The notes under the pieces are model-generated. The model saw only the letters and a program-made list of their open reading frames with translations. It did no database searches and had not been told where the DNA came from. Below are positions 381 to 11,365 of a stretch of DNA of 12,964 nucleotides, piece after piece. The position numbers were made by a program, and so were the translations under genes. Each line of letters starts with the position of its first letter. The first letter of the stretch is position 1. The stretch covers positions 1 through 12,964 of the forward strand of contig MNXK01000206.1 in the NCBI GenBank assembly GCA_001872165.1, written 5' to 3'. The stretch is from Anaerolineae bacterium CG2_30_58_95. GTDB taxonomy: Bacteria > Chloroflexota > Anaerolineae > Anaerolineales > Villigracilaceae.

Positions 381-429
381 GGTATAATGATAGCAGTATT
401 TCAAAAAGTGATAGCAGGAGCGTTGCTAT
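380..429 (+). promoter_or_regulatory. Promoter and likely autoregulatory operator of the plus-strand TA module
   Basis: An extended -10 box TGGTATAAT lies at 380-388. Overlapping and following it, TGATAGCAG occurs as a direct repeat at 388-396 and 409-417, exactly 21 bases apart (two helical turns). The second copy also forms an inverted repeat, ATAGCA 411-416 with TGCTAT 424-429. Three similar half-sites around a -10 box are what a ribbon-helix-helix antitoxin would need to repress its own operon. A ribosome-binding site AGGAG lies at 416-420. No good -35 box is visible. That the antitoxin is the protein that binds here is inference. Confidence 0.5.
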
Positions 430-718
430 GATGATCCGGACGATGATTCAATTAACGGAAGAGCAAATGAAAGCACTGAAGGAAATGGCCGCGGCGCGCA
501 AAACCTCGGTGGCGAAACTGGTGCGTGAGAGCGTGGCGCAGTATGTTGTCACGGCCATAAAGGATTCAGACCGCGAAGAAAAACGCCGCCGGGCGCTGGA
601 GTTTTTGGATTACATTGATGCGCATCCCGAAGAATTCCAGGACATCGAGGGCAAGACCGATGTTTCCGTCAACCACGACGAATATTTTGTCCAGGCAATC
701 GAAGATGATCTTCGTTGA
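428..718 (+). CDS. Ribbon-helix-helix type antitoxin (VapB-like)
   Basis: A 96-residue protein. The N-terminus, MIRTMIQLTEEQMKALKEMA followed by AARKTSVAKLVRESVAQYV, matches the beta-strand plus two-helix pattern of CopG/Arc ribbon-helix-helix DNA-binding antitoxins (residues 2-45). The remaining acidic and charged half (residues 46-96) would be the segment that covers the toxin. AGGAG at 416-420 sits seven bases before ATG 428. ATG 431 is an alternative that gives the common MIRT... beginning. The stop codon lies 14 bases inside the PIN toxin gene (overlap 705-718), so the two are translationally coupled. The protein probably represses its own promoter through the TGATAGCAG sites upstream. 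The family call comes from pattern reading, not from a search. Confidence 0.82.
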   Translation: MMIRTMIQLTEEQMKALKEMAAARKTSVAKLVRESVAQYVVTAIKDSDREEKRRRALEFLDYIDAHPEEFQDIEGKTDVSVNHDEYFVQAIEDDLR

Positions 719-1100
719 TAGTTCCGCCTTCTTCGCCATCCTTTCCGCTGGCGACATCAATCATCAGCGCGCCTCGTTGATGTGGAGGCGGCTTCTCGAA
801 GATGACCGCATCCTGTTGACCAACAACTACGTCGTGGTCGAGAGCATGGCAATCGCCCAAAAACGGCTCGGCCTTGAAAAGGTGCGTGATTTCCAAGAGA
901 AGATTCTGCCGTTCCTGAAAATCGAGTGGATTGACGAAGAACAGCACAATACAGCCGTCGAATTTGTCCTTCGGATCAACCGGCGCAGATTAAGCCTGGT
1001 GGATTGTTCTGCCTTCCAAACCATGAACAGTCTGGGGATTGATACCGCCTTCACCTTCGATGAACACTTCCGTGAACAGGGTTTCAACGTGATTCCGTAG
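705..1100 (+). CDS. vapC: VapC-family PIN-domain toxin (ribonuclease)
   Basis: A 131-residue PIN domain starting MIFVDSSAFFAIL. The four acidic residues of the metal-binding active site are all present: D5, E46 (in VVVESMA), D100 (in SLVDCSAF) and D119 (in FTFDEHF). This is full length for the family. VapC toxins are Mg/Mn-dependent RNases that cut tRNA or rRNA and are blocked by the co-encoded antitoxin. A longer frame opens upstream at 615, but the start at 705 gives the conserved N-terminus and places the gene in the typical short overlap with the antitoxin. The stop codon TAG (1098-1100) lies inside a 26-bp perfect palindrome shared with the convergent glycosyltransferase gene. RNA target unknown. 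Confidence 0.92.
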   Translation: MIFVDSSAFFAILSAGDINHQRASLMWRRLLEDDRILLTNNYVVVESMAIAQKRLGLEKVRDFQEKILPFLKIEWIDEEQHNTAVEFVLRINRRRLSLVDCSAFQTMNSLGIDTAFTFDEHFREQGFNVIP

Positions 1101-3372: not shown

Positions 3373-3787
3373 TCATTCTCCCAGCCCAATGATTTCACGA
3401 ACCAAGAAAGGCAAATTTAGGCGCTCGAAACCCATCTCCGGCGCAGGAAGGCGATGATGCTTGATATCGGGCGGAAGATGTTTATGATGCGGATACGTGA
3501 CTGCCAGTTCAGGGTCTTTGGGGTGAGGAAAGTCATCGTACCAGTAGAGCCGTTCCACGCCGCGATAGACTTCGTATCCGTAAGATGCAATGATCCCCGC
3601 TTCGAAATCCAACTCTTCATGAATGCGCAGACGGACGCCATTCGAGAAGAAAACTTCCCCCTCGGCTATGCCTGTAAAGGGGCTGTCAGACCAAACCGCG
3701 ACCGTCGAACGCTCCACCTCGACGGTCAAATACCTGCGCCACAAAATGGCTGTAGGCCTCCAACGGTTGGAGCGGGTTGCCTTTCAT
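3373..3787 (-). CDS. TumE-family (DUF6516) toxin, apparent frameshift near the 5' end
   Basis: The main frame (3373-3744) encodes ...[19 protein letters not shown]... through [15 protein letters not shown] to the end. The PHHKHLP block and the length fit the TumE/DUF6516 toxin family (recognised by eye). In this frame the only usable start is TTG 3742-3744, with no ribosome-binding site. In another frame an ATG at 3785-3787, just two bases after the stop of the partner gene, opens [15 protein letters not shown] and then runs out of frame. The two frames join if the TTTT run (minus strand, 3743-3746) loses one T. That gives [20 protein letters not shown]..., a smooth 138-residue protein. So the gene is either frameshifted, contains a read error, or uses the TTG. 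Toxin activity of the family is known only in outline; the target is not evident here. Confidence 0.72.
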
Positions 3788-3789
3788 GA

Positions 3790-4059
3790 CTAATAAGACG
3801 GTTGGATCCGCAAAGCGTCTGTGAATTCGCGTCTTTTGAGTTGTTCGGTATAGGCCTTCTTCCGGCGCAGCCAGGTTTCATAAACACCTTTCCAGCGGCT
3901 GAAATCGGCGCGCGTCTCGTCGAACGCATCATAACGGGACAGTTTGCCGGCCATGAGCGCCTGATAGAAATCGTCGCTCAAGACGCCATATTTTTCTTCG
4001 TAAAGGGTCAAACGGCGTTCGAGCAACTTCATTTCGATTACCAATTCATGGGTTTCCAT
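3790..4059 (-). CDS. Small helical partner (probable antitoxin) of the TumE-family toxin
   Basis: An 89-residue, charged, almost fully helical protein: METHELVIEMKLLERRLTLYEEKYGVLSDDFYQAL... then DFSRWKGVYETWLRRKKAYTEQLKRRE. There is no helix-turn-helix or other DNA-binding fold that I can recognise. Small proteins with the pattern E-x-KYG-x-S-x-DFY and a DF-x-W-x-G-x-YE segment are commonly found directly before DUF6516/TumE genes, so an antitoxin role is likely (family memory plus context, not proven). ATG 4057-4059 has a strong ribosome-binding site GGAGG (4065-4069) five bases upstream. The stop codon is two bases before the toxin's likely original ATG, suggesting coupled translation. A TACAAT box at 4087-4092 may be the promoter. 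Confidence 0.75.
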   Translation of the reverse strand: METHELVIEMKLLERRLTLYEEKYGVLSDDFYQALMAGKLSRYDAFDETRADFSRWKGVYETWLRRKKAYTEQLKRREFTDALRIQPSY

Positions 4060-4132: not shown

Positions 4133-5281
4133 TCACTGGTTTCTCAATGGCAATTCCATGACCCGGGCAAGCGGCCAGACAGTGATGCGTTCACTTACAG
4201 GATATTCGTGCTGGCCCGGGTACAGCACCCATAGATGTTCCAGGTCCAAGATCTGCAAAGCCGTGCGCATGGAAGGCGTCATTCGGGGCGCCTCGTTGAA
4301 TTTGACTTCCACACCATAGCGCTTCCCCGAATGGATGATAATCAGGTCGAGTTCTGCGCCTCCATACGTCCCCCAGTAATAGGCCTGTGAAGGCCGCAGC
4401 GCCTGTAAGATTTGTTCGAGCGCAAATCCCTCCCACGAAGAACCCACCTTTGGGTTTCCCAGCAACGTGTGCTGGTCATGAATATCCAGCAAACTATGCA
4501 AGAGGCCGCTATCACGAAAATAAACTTTCGGGGCTTTGACCTGCCGCTTGCTGATATTCTCGTACCAGGGCTGGAGCTGCCGCACCATGAAGGTACTGGT
4601 CAGGATGTCCAGGTACGAGCGGACAGTTTTATCCGACAGTCCCATCGAGCGTGAAAGTTCGGCAGCATTCCAGGTCTGTCCATGATAATGAGCCAGCATG
4701 GTCCAGAAACGACGCATGGCGGCCGCCGGAATGCTGATGCCCAATTGAGGGATGTCGCGCTCCAGGAAAGTCCGGATAAAGCCTTCCCGCCAGGCAAGAC
4801 TATCCTCCTCGCTCTCAGCCAGGAACGAGCGCGGGAACCCGCCGCGCACCCATAGTTGACGCCAGGTATCCGCGCCGGTTTCGGAAAGGGAAAAACCGGA
4901 GAGTTCCACGAACTCCACCCGGCCGGCCAGCGTCTCGGAAGCATTTTTGACCAACGCAGGCGAGGCGCTGCCCAAAACGAGGAAACGCGCCTTGTTTTCA
5001 GGCCGGTCCACCAAAACGCGCAGCACCTGGAAAAGTTCGGGCAAGGTTTGAATCTCATCCAGGATGACCAGTCCCTCCAGCGCGCCCAGGACGAGTTCGG
5101 GATTTTGCAGGCGGCGCTGGTCGGGGAGCGACTCCAGGTCGAAGAAGGTGGCCGTCTTGTCTTCGATGAACTGCCGCGCCAGCGTTGTTTTACCGCACTG
5201 ACGCGGGCCAAGCAGGGCGGTCACAGGTGAGCGCCGGGTGGCTGTTTCGAGCCGCTCGAGATGATCTTTTCGTAGCAGCAT
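4133..5281 (-). CDS. AAA-type ATPase with C-terminal DUF4143 domain
   Basis: A 382-residue protein from ATG 5279-5281. The N-terminal ATPase has Walker A GPRQCGKTT (residues 25-33), Walker B LVILDE (71-76) and a sensor-like LVLGSASP. A winged-helix-like stretch follows (WNAAELSRSMGLSDKTVRSYLDILT), then the DUF4143 domain. Its end has E310-L-D312 and E325-V-K327, resembling the acidic-and-lysine core of PD-(D/E)xK nucleases. These ATPases are abundant in genomic islands of bacteria and archaea and are often paired with TA or mobile genes; their true function is not established. A longer frame begins at TTG 5296, but TATAAT (5288-5293) would then lie inside the gene, so the ATG is preferred. 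It reads into the TumE pair 73 bases downstream. Confidence 0.9.
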   Translation of the reverse strand: MLLRKDHLERLETATRRSPVTALLGPRQCGKTTLARQFIEDKTATFFDLESLPDQRRLQNPELVLGALEGLVILDEIQTLPELFQVLRVLVDRPENKARFLVLGSASPALVKNASETLAGRVEFVELSGFSLSETGADTWRQLWVRGGFPRSFLAESEEDSLAWREGFIRTFLERDIPQLGISIPAAAMRRFWTMLAHYHGQTWNAAELSRSMGLSDKTVRSYLDILTSTFMVRQLQPWYENISKRQVKAPKVYFRDSGLLHSLLDIHDQHTLLGNPKVGSSWEGFALEQILQALRPSQAYYWGTYGGAELDLIIIHSGKRYGVEVKFNEAPRMTPSMRTALQILDLEHLWVLYPGQHEYPVSERITVWPLARVMELPLRNQ

Positions 5282-5287
5282 AAGCCG

Positions 5288-5293
5288 ATTATA
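5288..5293 (-). promoter_or_regulatory. -10 box (TATAAT) of the ATPase gene, predicted leaderless mRNA
   Basis: A perfect TATAAT on the minus strand is only six bases before ATG 5281. The usual distance from a -10 box to the first transcribed base would place the mRNA start at or next to the A of the ATG. No ribosome-binding site can fit in such a leader. A leaderless transcript is therefore inferred. Confidence 0.45.
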
Positions 5294-5324
5294 CAACGAA
5301 AATTCGGGGTTGAACTCCGAATTA

Positions 5325-7355
5325 TTACAGCATTTCCAAGAACGAGTTTTTGTTCTTCCTTACCCACTCGAACAGCCTCCCCACCCCCTCCTCCACGCCG
5401 ATTCTCGGCTTCCAGCCCAATTCTCGCTCCGCCTTGCGGATGTCGGCCACGAAGACCTTCTGGTCGCCGGGACGCCAGTCGCCGCGCGCCATCGGGATAT
5501 GCTCGCCGAGTAGCTTTTCCAGCAGCGGCCCAAACTCCGCCCAGATGGACATAATGTTTTCCGGCCCGCCGCCCACGTTATAGACCTGTCCCTGTGCCGT
5601 GTCAATCCTGGCAATGGCAGCATCGTAGGCATCCAGCAAGTCATCTATATACAACACGTCGCGCACCTGTTTGCCATCCCCGTAAATGGTGATCGGACGA
5701 CCGGTCACGGCGGCGATGGTCATCCAGGCCACCCAGCCCTGGTCTTCGATACCAAATTGTCTCGGTCCATAGATGCACGACTGGCGGAAGACCACCGTTG
5801 GCAAACCGTAAATGCGGAAGTAATCGCGCACGTACTGGTCGCCCGTCCCTTTGGAGTTCCCAGAAAAATAAGCATATCCATCTTGACGGACCATTACAAC
5901 AGAGTTTGGTACTTCCACACAATAGGTCATTCCATCGTAGTCAATCCATTCGCTGCGGTCTGCCCCCAGATTGCATTGGGCCGTCCTGGTCGTGCAAAGA
6001 TTGACTCTGTAAAACCCCTGCCTGTCCAGAGAAACCGAGGAGGCCATTCCACACTTGAGAGCGATTTCCTGGACGTCATCTGCCAACCGTCGGGAAACAG
6101 TGGTGTATCTCCAACTATTTTTGCTCTGTTGATTGCCGTCGCCATCAAGTAAAGATTTTAGCAAGATGCCAAGATGGTTTCGACTCAATTTCTTAATGTC
6201 CTGAGGGATGTACTTATCATGACTCTTGCCAAGGAGTTTAACGTACTCGTATAACTGCCGCGACGTTGCAGTAACATGATGCTTGTCCACAACAGGCGAT
6301 AAACCCACGGCACGCATCACAGTCAGCGCTTCGTCGGTTCGATAATAGGTCGTCAATGTGACGGTGCAATTGCCGGTCTTCTGACTTTCGTAGCAATGTC
6401 CCTCAGCAATATACCATCCTAAGAATCTCAACCAGTCATCCATTGGGATTGTTCGAGACGGAAAATAATGTTTATGTTTTCCTGCCTTGACCTCGGGCAA
6501 GACGAAATATTCACGTTCTTCGCCTCCATCCATTTCTGCTGCAAGGAGATAAGCCATCGGCTTCCCCTTCAGTGATTGCGCCTCAACCAGACGGGGATTT
6601 TCGAGTTCATTATGATTGCAATCCCATGACACTAGTATTTTATGATTGGGCGTCACACATGTTTTCAGGCGGCGGTTATTTTGCACATACATTTTTCCCT
6701 TATAAGGATATGCAAAATGAGCCGTGGGCTTCTGGTATTCCGCAATCTTTCGCTCCAAGTTATATGTCAAAACTTCATCTTCTGGAACTAGATCATAAAG
6801 CCTTTTCCATCCTCCGCGCGTTAGGATGTCTGTCTCAGCAGAATAACAACACCCGTAGGGACTGTGGAAATCCAGCGGCTGGGTCTCAGGGCAGCCGAAG
6901 GGCAGGTTCTCATATTCCCAGCGCGTCGCCCGCTCGACCACCGGCACATCCTCCATCCCGCCATACACTTTGTTCGTCGAAGCATAGATCACCATCGGCC
7001 TGCGCTCCGAGAGCCGCGCCGCCTCCAGCACATTGAACGCGCCGAGGGCGTTGGCCTCGAAATCTTCTCTTGGATGTGTGACGGATGTCGTGACTGCGAC
7101 TTGCCCCGCCAAATGGACGATGACCTCCGCCTCACGGCCGGCTGCCGTTAAAAGGGCCGCGTCGCGCACGTCCCCGACGATGAGCCTGAACGCGTTTTCC
7201 CCGAACGTTTCCTGCAGCCAGGCCAGGTTGCGCGGCGCGCCGCCGCGGCTGAGATTATCGTAGATGGTCACCTTCTCGCCGCGCGCCAGCAGGCGATGAA
7301 CGTAGTTCGAACCAATAAAGCCGGCCCCACCGGTGATGAAATAATTCTTCGGCAT
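5325..7355 (-). CDS. NAD-dependent sugar-nucleotide epimerase (CDP-paratose 2-epimerase-like) interrupted by an intein
   Basis: The 676-residue precursor is an extended SDR enzyme of about 345 residues plus a 331-residue intein. The N-extein has the NAD site GGAGFIG (residues 9-15), HLAGQVAVTTSVTHPREDF and ASTNKVYG. The C-extein continues SKGTGDQYVRDY, YGDGKQVRDVLY, VYNVGGG and DQKVFVADIRKA. AGQVA-TTS, STNKVYG, HSPYGCSKG and DQKVFVADI match CDP-paratose/tyvelose 2-epimerases best; UDP-glucose 4-epimerase or a dehydratase of the same superfamily is possible. The catalytic Tyr167-x-x-x-Lys motif is split by the intein (Cys170 to Asn500); splicing restores Tyr-Gly-Cys-Ser-Lys. The enzyme would act in the cytoplasm to make a nucleotide sugar for surface glycans, in line with the nearby glycosyltransferase. 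ATG 7353-7355 is preferred over the upstream TTG at 7364. Confidence 0.93.
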   Translation of the reverse strand: MPKNYFITGGAGFIGSNYVHRLLARGEKVTIYDNLSRGGAPRNLAWLQETFGENAFRLIVGDVRDAALLTAAGREAEVIVHLAGQVAVTTSVTHPREDFEANALGAFNVLEAARLSERRPMVIYASTNKVYGGMEDVPVVERATRWEYENLPFGCPETQPLDFHSPYGCCYSAETDILTRGGWKRLYDLVPEDEVLTYNLERKIAEYQKPTAHFAYPYKGKMYVQNNRRLKTCVTPNHKILVSWDCNHNELENPRLVEAQSLKGKPMAYLLAAEMDGGEEREYFVLPEVKAGKHKHYFPSRTIPMDDWLRFLGWYIAEGHCYESQKTGNCTVTLTTYYRTDEALTVMRAVGLSPVVDKHHVTATSRQLYEYVKLLGKSHDKYIPQDIKKLSRNHLGILLKSLLDGDGNQQSKNSWRYTTVSRRLADDVQEIALKCGMASSVSLDRQGFYRVNLCTTRTAQCNLGADRSEWIDYDGMTYCVEVPNSVVMVRQDGYAYFSGNSKGTGDQYVRDYFRIYGLPTVVFRQSCIYGPRQFGIEDQGWVAWMTIAAVTGRPITIYGDGKQVRDVLYIDDLLDAYDAAIARIDTAQGQVYNVGGGPENIMSIWAEFGPLLEKLLGEHIPMARGDWRPGDQKVFVADIRKAERELGWKPRIGVEEGVGRLFEWVRKNKNSFLEML
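5856..6848 (-). mobile_element. Class 1 intein with LAGLIDADG homing endonuclease, in the epimerase gene
   Basis: This is an in-frame 331-codon insert. Numbered on the precursor, block A is Cys170 (CYSAETDILTRGGW), block B has T235-x-x-H238 (CVTPNHKILV), block F is TYCVEVPN, and the end is YFSGN, with terminal Asn500 followed by Ser501 of the host. The residue before the Asn is Gly instead of the usual His. In the middle are two LAGLIDADG-type helices: FLGWYIAEGH (acid E318) and LLKSLLDGDG (acid D406). The endonuclease therefore looks intact. Cys170, not Cys169, is taken as the first residue, because only this choice restores Tyr-x-x-x-Lys. One 60-base line inside the intein (6121-6180) has 25 G/C, against 39 in a flanking line (7141-7200), suggesting recent transfer. 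Protein splicing should release the intein and join the exteins. Confidence 0.93.
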
Positions 7356-10485: not shown

Positions 10486-10575
10486 CTATAATTCGACAAT
10501 ATCGCCCCCCACCTCCAGCCACGCCAGGAACTCCACATTCCCCTTCGGCCCCAGCAGCGGGCTAGTCGGTATCGC
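10486..10575 (-). pseudogene. tlyA: 3' remnant of tlyA (rRNA 2'-O-methyltransferase/hemolysin A family)
   Basis: About 29 codons on the minus strand read AIPTSPLLGPKGNVEFLAWL, then EVGGDIVEL and a stop (TAG, 10486-10488). The S-P-L-x-GPKGNVEFL-x-WL block is the conserved C-terminus of TlyA-type methyltransferases. The rest of the gene (normally about 250 residues) is missing: upstream there are the PIN toxin and its antitoxin in other frames. The remnant shares its first bases with the last codons of the PIN toxin gene (overlap 10562-10575), so the module's end is fused to the tlyA tail. The recognition is by motif memory; a short chance match is unlikely given the in-frame stop just after the family's usual end. 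Confidence 0.68.
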
Positions 10576-10972
10576 ACACCAGCCGCTTGAACATGGATAC
10601 CGAGAGGATAGTGGTATTCATGATTTTCTTCGCATCCTTGAAATCGCGATCACCCGTGATGAAATAATCCGCGTTGGCGGAGATTGCACAGGCAAGAAAC
10701 ATGGCATCTTTTTGGTCACGCGGAAATTGAACTCGAATATCCACATCCACAAGTGCGGTCAATCCGGTAATAATCATTTCCCACCGTTCGATGGTTTCTG
10801 ACTGCAACCCAAATTTTTCCCGTCGCAGAACTTCGCGATATTCCGTCAGAATTTCATCTGAAACGATCCATTTCCAATCGCGATGGCTGGCAATCCAAAG
10901 AATAACCGCCTCGGGGGATTTGTCCCGCCAGGCGGCTGAGAGCAATACGTTGGTGTCAATGACAACTTTCAT
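10562..10972 (-). CDS. PIN-domain toxin of the COG1569 type
   Basis: A 136-residue protein starting MKVVIDTNVLLSAAW. The PIN active-site acids are D6, E44 (in ILTEYREVL), D89 (in DQKDAMFLACA) and D108 with D110 (in TGDRDF). The domain is complete and matches the subgroup called 'putative toxin-antitoxin toxin component, PIN family'. Such proteins are metal-dependent RNases held inactive by a co-encoded antitoxin. Its ATG overlaps the antitoxin's stop by four bases (ATGA, 10969-10972), so translation is coupled. Its last codons (MFKRLVCDTD) lie where an upstream part of tlyA should be, and the stop TAG (10562-10564) overlaps the tlyA remnant. The C-terminal tail may therefore be read from former tlyA DNA. 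Confidence 0.9.
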   Translation of the reverse strand: MKVVIDTNVLLSAAWRDKSPEAVILWIASHRDWKWIVSDEILTEYREVLRREKFGLQSETIERWEMIITGLTALVDVDIRVQFPRDQKDAMFLACAISANADYFITGDRDFKDAKKIMNTTILSVSMFKRLVCDTD

Positions 10973-11226
10973 CCGGCTTTGGAGGCGCGGTATGCGGCGA
11001 TTTCAGCGGCAATATCTGCTTCGGTAATAGTTCTGGCCTGAGGAAGAGACCGGATTTCTTTGAACAAGGATTTCAGTTCACCGGCCAGCGCCTGTCGTTG
11101 CTTCGCAGATTTTTGGGCTTCCGCGCTCACAGTCACCTCGACCTTTGCGCCCGGGCGGAAAGGCAGGCCTTTGATGGACAATCTCCCATCTTTGGATACA
11201 GTTGTTGATATACGAAAAGTTTCCAG
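10969..11226 (-). CDS. AbrB-like antitoxin of the second PIN toxin; start codon uncertain
   Basis: The conserved part reads ETFRISTTVSKDGRLSIKGLPF, then RPGAKVEVTVSAEAQ, a swapped-hairpin AbrB/MazE-like DNA-binding fold. It is followed by a long helix and ...ITEADIAAEIAAYRASK, a tail typical of antitoxins that wrap around PIN toxins. Homologous antitoxins usually start M-x-(S/T)-F-(R/K). Here that position is CTG (11224-11226), with AGAGAG a few bases upstream and a TATAGA box at about 11236-11241. The frame is open to ATG 11304, but that ATG lies inside hairpin 1 of a REPIN-like repeat and the added residues look like translated repeat. So either CTG is used, or the gene lost its ATG, or it starts at the TTG near 11181. 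The stop overlaps the toxin start by four bases. Confidence 0.72.
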   Translation of the reverse strand: METFRISTTVSKDGRLSIKGLPFRPGAKVEVTVSAEAQKSAKQRQALAGELKSLFKEIRSLPQARTITEADIAAEIAAYRASKAG

Positions 11227-11249
11227 AAGACACTCTCTATATTTATTAA

Positions 11250-11365
11250 ACCTCTTGCATAAGTGCCAGCCTATGATGAAAATTTCTGCGGGACGGGCTC
11301 CCATGCCCGTCTTTCGGCGGCGTAGGAGCCGCCTCTACAAAATCCTGGAGACTTTTGCAAGAGGT
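11250..11365 (+). repeat. REPIN-like double-hairpin repeat, copy 2
   Basis: Hairpin 1 has arms GACGGGC (11292-11298) and GCCCGTC (11305-11311) with loop TCCCAT. After spacer TTTC, hairpin 2 has arms GGCGGC (11316-11321) and GCCGCC (11328-11333) with loop GTAGGA. The 42-base plan is the same as in copy 1, although the stem bases differ, so pairing has been kept by compensating changes. An outer 10-bp inverted repeat, ACCTCTTGCA (11250-11259) and TGCAAGAGGT (11356-11365), encloses it. It lies between the Rieske gene and the antitoxin gene and may have displaced the antitoxin's own promoter or start. Confidence 0.75.

Follow-up and report, generated by a model that had tools for sequence, protein, structure and literature searches.

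A LAGLIDADG intein in the catalytic motif of a putative CDP-tyvelose/paratose-type 2-epimerase from an Anaerolineae bacterium

Class 1 inteins leave their precursors by established steps—that is, an N-S shift, transfer to the +1 residue, cyclization of the terminal Asn, and an O-N shift. Among them, TliVMA (7qsu), PI-PkoII (2cw7), and PI-SceI combine a Hint fold with a two-motif LAGLIDADG endonuclease domain, and inteins in general have been described mainly in replication, recombination, and repair proteins, many of them in ATP-binding domains (PMC10663303). Here, we describe an intein in another kind of host, namely an extended short-chain dehydrogenase/reductase (SDR) of the CDP-tyvelose/paratose-type 2-epimerase family, encoded on a 12,964-nucleotide contig of Anaerolineae bacterium CG2_30_58_95 (MNXK01000206.1). 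This contig, analyzed at its full length and referred to below as the window, is one whole contig of a genome bin that is 67% complete.

In common with the three LAGLIDADG inteins named above, the window intein has Cys1, a TxxH motif, a terminal Asn, and a nucleophilic +1 residue. It differs from them in its SDR host, its penultimate Gly, a Cys at position F:4, and the lack of a block F His, and its identity to their structures is only 9–19%. The mycobacteriophage RDF intein, also of class 1, likewise ends in Gly-Asn (PMC5050341), but the window intein has lost the block F His as well, and its host is a cellular sugar-nucleotide enzyme. Homologous, full-length inteins with 27–37% identity and the same CYxxxTE..GN layout occur in uncultured bacteria and archaea (L045–L083 except L047, L048, L050, and L054), in hosts that look, by eye and from their flanking motifs, like NrdD, MCM, and radical-SAM proteins. 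Most of these differ from the window intein in having a block F His, found, mostly as VPNH, in 30/41 members of a wider alignment that also holds SDR inteins. Membership in class 3 was considered on account of the F:4 Cys and because a split intein of class 3 was among the fold matches, and was rejected: the class 3 inteins AceL NrdHF (6zgq) and MchDnaB1 lack Cys1, which is present here, and the W-C-T triplet (PMC7664689) is absent, its places being held by I71 (Ile in place of Trp, two positions past the block B His), C310, and S329 (Ser, not Thr, at G:5).

Host enzyme and insert

The precursor gene (Table 1) is open throughout, with neither a stop nor a frameshift, and encodes 676 residues counting Met. 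Its insert comprises exactly 331 residues, flanked by SPYGC and SKGTGDQY, with the insertion point between the Cys and Ser of Y-G-C-S-K; joining the flanks yields a 344-residue enzyme (345 with Met) in which this motif is rebuilt. The same boundaries had been proposed in an earlier, sequence-only reading of this DNA, whose catalytic Tyr167 is also correct when Met is counted. The flanks match the SDR families PF16363 (E 6.9e-44) and PF01370 (E 2.3e-43), and the best solved relatives of the joined enzyme are the CDP-tyvelose 2-epimerases 9rl0 (E 6.5e-93) and 1orr (E 9.4e-75; TM-score, TMt, 0.93 in structure comparison). Alignment of the joined exteins with CDP-paratose 2-epimerases, as that reading had suggested, gave 88% identity over 99% of the length to P0122, an intein-free protein of 341 residues bearing that name. 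HSPYGCSKG is conserved across P0122, 9rl0, and 1orr, and the catalytic Tyr and Lys (Y166 and K501) are invariant in a 56-protein alignment; NCBIfam equivalogs, such as that for dTDP-glucose dehydratase, scored far below cut-off on the window protein. By similarity, the host is thus assigned as a CDP-tyvelose/paratose-type 2-epimerase, its substrate being putative. No second copy close to this epimerase was found in the 67% complete bin, the other matches being short pieces of at most 51% identity. The epimerase can soundly be predicted to be inactive until the intein leaves.

The insert matches LAGLIDADG_3 (PF14528) with an E-value of 1.5e-8 and 35.2 bits against a cut-off of 22.5, and contains two LAGLIDADG helices with the acids E149 and D237. 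Its predicted fold is the Hint fold of endonuclease-bearing inteins. It carries a Cys1 nucleophile, a block B TxxH, and a C-terminal Asn followed by a +1 Ser, and is inserted in frame at a site that is empty in all 11 relatives fetched. The penultimate His, usual though not essential in class 1 inteins, is replaced by Gly, as in 116/116 inteins compared. Database proteins matching the insert at E ≤ 0.001 number 210 (the best 120 listed), far beyond chance. Among the 121 proteins examined, 110 share the insertion site, with alike junctions (105 SPYGC↓SKG and five GPYGC↓SKG, the arrow marking the insertion point). One database protein (P0002), 100% identical to the window protein, has 11 member sequences and lies on a contig of 8321 bases, compared with 12,964 here, which makes a chimera limited to the present contig unlikely. 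Intein-bearing homologues of the window protein carry Chloroflexota/Anaerolineae names in the databases.

Profile evidence weighs in part on the other side: the match to Hint_2 is weak (E 0.063, 14.1 bits against a cut-off of 28.4), and the Pfam Hint and intein models all stay below their cut-offs on the window protein. Of the profile matches anticipated in the sequence-only reading, that to LAGLIDADG was obtained and that to Hint stayed weak. Taken together, the profiles, junctions, structure matches, and predicted fold agree with its proposal of a LAGLIDADG-bearing intein splitting Tyr-x-x-x-Lys. We have high confidence in a class-1-type intein that carries an endonuclease domain, very probably excises itself to restore an active 2-epimerase, and very probably spreads horizontally.

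According to the proposed mechanism, the precursor would be translated whole, and the intein very probably excises itself, joining the preceding Cys to the following Ser. An N-S shift at Cys1, aided by T66-x-x-H69, would be followed by transfer to Ser+1, cyclization of Asn331, and an O-N shift, leaving SPYGCSKG; with Y-G-C-S-K restored, an active CDP-tyvelose/paratose-type 2-epimerase would result.

Mobility and horizontal history

The distribution of the intein is sporadic. The site is empty in 11/11 orthologues read as DNA from relatives of the window genome; among the matches listed for 100 relatives of the same genus, family, and order, the sole uninterrupted full-length match is the window itself, and at least 60 of these relatives (hand count) carry both epimerase halves side by side without an insert. 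Across 396 genomes of the class, the intein was found in five (E ≤ 1e-40), which belong to five different families and one of which holds a fragment at a contig end, and the epimerase in 179 (E ≤ 1e-90)—sets that are not nested, as intein-split copies may miss the latter threshold. Within a phylum sample, 46/400 genomes gave some intein match at E ≤ 0.001, with at most 45% identity except for the window's own. A contig binned as Parcubacteria (L043) encodes an intein with 70% identity over residues 52–331, together with an epimerase C-terminal part that is 54% identical to that of the window; given this bin assignment, the intein seems to cross phyla. Viral contigs were also searched for a carrier of precisely this epimerase intein. 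The viral collection contained 119 stretches encoding a homologous intein in many genes, of which 80 loci were kept and motif-scanned, but the best identity in viral contigs was 38% (tblastn), and no recent donor was found.

Comparisons of intein and host point in the same direction. For 97 precursors, intein identity exceeds host-enzyme identity in 4075/4656 pairs (Spearman 0.28), and the intein and extein trees are each rejected by the other partition in the approximately unbiased (AU) test. In the window, GC content at third codon positions (GC3) is 0.474 in the intein vs 0.770 in the enzyme, and such a gap recurs in two of three named intein-bearing genomes (L040, 0.495/0.660; L041, 0.429/0.613).

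Several observations temper this picture: the AU test used 1000 resamplings, which is below the program's advice; 26/94 splits are common to the two trees, so that part of the history is shared; 14/24 well-supported intein splits recur in the extein tree, with only 6/24 contradicted by a well-supported extein split; and in the third genome (L042) the GC3 gap is absent (0.819 intein/0.804 enzyme). The intein nevertheless looks like a mobile element, and its sporadic presence, its retained endonuclease, a base composition foreign to the host, and the conflict between the trees fit a homing element. The conserved YxxxK codons of epimerase genes lacking the intein are very probably where its endonuclease cuts, which would lead to horizontal spread. 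A functional SDR must keep these codons, so the homing target would be hard to lose without losing the enzyme. At the junction codons (6849–6851 and 5853–5855), comparison with L009–L019 showed TGT↓TCC in 4/4 distinct intein-bearing sequences and in 1/11 empty ones, which could reflect target preference or co-conversion in these few sequences.

The sequence-only reading had also raised the possibility of a switch on surface glycan composition. In its host-tamed form, splicing would answer a signal, such as redox acting through the Cys−1/Cys1 pair, and would thereby control the supply of activated sugar and surface glycans. The intein does block the catalytic YxxxK, a Cys at −1 adjoins Cys1 in 110/110 epimerase inteins, and conditional splicing in response to temperature, redox, or metals has been reported for other inteins (PMC10663303). 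The intein is, however, sporadic and horizontally distributed, and relatives manage without it; 102/110 epimerase inteins still have the two endonuclease acids and span at least 325 residues, as in a selfish element, and related inteins at the YxxxK of other SDRs have different −1 residues. Redox control acting at the Cys-Cys junction was rejected, as the −1 Cys is also present in 11/11 intein-free orthologues and is thus not an intein adaptation. We therefore regard a host-tamed switch as very unlikely; the idea found no support, and the observations listed above fit a homing element.

The splicing center

The eight epimerase inteins outside the retained 102 (P0006, P0103, P0105, P0106, P0111, P0112, P0113, and P0116) are regarded as decayed, with lengths down to 317 (P0111 and P0112), 294 (P0113), and 254 (P0116) residues. 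Their identity to the consensus averages 0.64 in the endonuclease part vs 0.78 in the others, and 0.80 vs 0.83 in the splicing part, and 8/8 retain all six splicing positions that were checked. Damaged endonucleases coexist with intact splicing positions, as would be expected if the enzyme depended on splicing but not on the endonuclease; splicing is thus very probably needed. A point on the other side is that P0006 counts as decayed only through D237N.

The C-terminal part of the splicing center is altered. The penultimate Gly extends to 41/41 members of the wider set; the block F His position, which we read as F:13 in that set, is Ser in 106/116 inteins of the epimerase-centered set, and Cys occupies F:4 in 114/116. 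The F:4 residue has been described as most commonly Asp, with Cys second (PMC4031507), so the F:4 Cys is not new in itself. By text pattern, the block F His is absent in 47/48 SDR inteins vs 8/48 others, a pattern that also scores P0314, whose His is misplaced, as having it. Thus, the SDR intein group seems to lack both C-terminal helper histidines. A block F His can replace the penultimate His (PMC5050341), and with Gly and Ser at these two positions the window intein lacks the customary aids to Asn cyclization, so that its splicing could be slow, a point against the proposed mechanism.

Taken further, the absence of both histidines would suggest a dead intein leaving a broken epimerase. Yet the nucleophiles and the residues of block B do not vary across 116 inteins, even where the endonuclease is damaged; the frame has neither stop nor shift and the host's catalytic Tyr and Lys are conserved; and the phage RDF intein with its penultimate Gly has been reported to splice (PMC5050341). 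A dead intein is accordingly most improbable, and self-excision remains the preferred reading. That the insert is instead a normal domain of the enzyme, as its recurrence at a single position of 110 database epimerases might suggest and as homologues carrying it as such would have indicated to the earlier reader, can be dismissed: the empty sites in relatives already refute it, its fold is that of endonuclease-bearing inteins, and the 120 best-listed homologues of the joined enzyme (7999 proteins scored, candidates of ~190–600 residues) are 341–358 residues long, without room for the insert.

Table 1. Features of the precursor gene and neighboring genes in the window
Feature	Position	Strand	Remarks
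Whole precursor gene, putative CDP-tyvelose/paratose-type 2-epimerase (extended SDR) with one intein	5325..7355	-	ATG at 7355, stop 5325-5327
N-extein, Rossmann part	6849..7355	-	GGAGFIG; STNKVYG, which we take to hold the catalytic Ser/Thr; ends in SPYGC with catalytic Tyr
Intein, 331 residues	5856..6848	-	Cys1 to Asn331, +1 Ser
Block A, CYSAETDILT (Cys1)	6819..6848	-	Cys1 in 116/116 inteins
Block B, TCVTPNHKIL (T66-x-x-H69)	6633..6662	-	T66 and H69 in 116/116 inteins
LAGLIDADG helix 1, FLGWYIAEGH (acid E149)	6396..6425	-	E149 in 112/116 inteins
LAGLIDADG helix 2, LLKSLLDGDGN (acid D237)	6132..6164	-	D237 in 109/116 inteins; PF14528 match 230-283
Block F, MTYCVEVPNSVVMV	5889..5930	-	Cys at F:4 (C310); Ser where many related inteins have the PNH histidine
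Block G, GYAYFSGN	5856..5879	-	Penultimate Gly, terminal Asn; G330 and N331 in 116/116 inteins
C-extein, epimerase second half	5325..5855	-	Starts S-K-G (+1 Ser, catalytic Lys)
AAA/DUF4143 gene	4133-5296		
TumE-like toxin gene (PF20126, E 2e-11), within	3373-4059	-	Region lies downstream of AAA/DUF4143 gene; adjoining small open reading frame 3790-4059 could be partner
Likely toxin-antitoxin pair	428-1100	+	Judged by eye
Likely toxin-antitoxin pair	10562-11304	-	10562-10972, PIN domain

Related inteins in the SDR superfamily

Related inteins occupy the YxxxK of other SDRs (P0114, P0115, P0118, P0117, and P0121), of which P0117 and P0121 are presumably SQD1-like, a label based on motifs for proteins annotated as NAD-dependent epimerase/dehydratase; further YxxxK-site inteins were found in Argonema (L044) and on two contigs binned as haloarchaea (L047 and L050). 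A search with the P0121 intein matched 1849 proteins, and among the best 120 listed, 111 new ones were read at their junctions: 55 are of the FYHx↓SK type (YxxxK), eight are LG↓[TS]MGE, at what we take from the SDR motif to be the catalytic Thr, 12 are TxGxYG↓[STC]P, just behind it, and 36 are other hosts or fragments. Inteins at catalytic residues are thus carried by 110 epimerases and at least 75 other SDR proteins. On a 110,776-base viral contig, one SDR (L087:4236-6890) has both its Thr and Tyr-Lys sites filled, a short intein interrupting TIG↓SMGEY and a full one SYYHA↓SK, and an SDR-type gene on another viral contig (L099:3859-4860) carries a related intein directly after TMGEYG. The invasion of several SDR families at one motif would be explained by the YxxxK codons being indispensable.

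A tree was built from 96 inteins selected by hand: 48 from SDRs, partly found with SDR-intein queries, and 48 others, with P0341 left out as its ends were not definable. In this tree, 46/48 SDR inteins form one clade together with two RNA-polymerase inteins (97.5/99), and a node of SDR inteins alone is unsupported (13.3/16). The SDR/other label changes twice on this tree vs at least 25 times in 500 shuffles. Since the main clade does not include two of the SDR inteins (P0340 and P0348), inteins probably arrived at the Thr site on two or more occasions. In a 57-intein tree, 25 SDR inteins and one from a radical-SAM-like host (L065) form a clade (98/99; SDR inteins alone, 60/69); L065 lies outside the clade in the 96-intein tree, where the two RNA-polymerase inteins lie inside.

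Other intein sites were observed as well. The same epimerase contains a second, different intein at RQS↓C...SN↓C(I/F)YG in P0022 and P0113, which were read, with matching breaks in P0070, P0105, P0106, and P0116; such two-intein precursors comprise 1040–1135 residues. In P0084 (read), the YxxxK intein is accompanied by one at another site, AAQ↓S...HN↓TTMVTSV, which lies in the half that binds NAD, with a matching break in P0066. In addition, short PF13385-domain proteins (P0330, P0337, P0343, and P0349) contain related inteins at SFDG[VI]DDY↓C and are odd intein hosts.

A search of open-access full texts found no paper describing inteins in epimerases or any other SDRs, and a prior listing elsewhere is possible. 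An intein is known in a UDP-glucose dehydrogenase of Methanocaldococcus jannaschii, which is not an SDR. The sequence-only description of an unusual host therefore holds for the literature but not for sequence data, in which the site is commonly filled and other SDRs carry related inteins. Many precursors are named GDP-mannose 4,6-dehydratase, SDR oxidoreductase, or nucleoside-diphosphate-sugar epimerase with the intein unmentioned, which calls for caution in annotation; a few JGI names do mention it (P0070, P0106, P0243, P0287, and P0334), and the Pfam intein model reaches 16/41 of the wider set.

Taken singly, the window case amounts to a mobile intein whose mechanism is known and whose kind of host is apparently unreported, the added value lying in the SDR-wide lineage and the altered splicing center. 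The SDR inteins apparently constitute a widespread, undescribed group recurring at active sites of the superfamily. We cautiously favor the further reading that SDRs are an undescribed intein hot spot with a lineage of its own, homing, across bacteria, archaea, and viral contigs, on catalytic codons of several families (those of YxxxK, of the Thr motif, and directly after the latter), and splicing with a reduced C-terminal apparatus that has lost both helper histidines and perhaps leans on the F:4 Cys. Inteins of this kind offer a set for mechanism studies and engineering, and those of the epimerases allow endonuclease decay to be followed alongside intact splicing residues. Overall, the SDR inteins provide a natural experiment on inteins tracking active-site motifs across host families.
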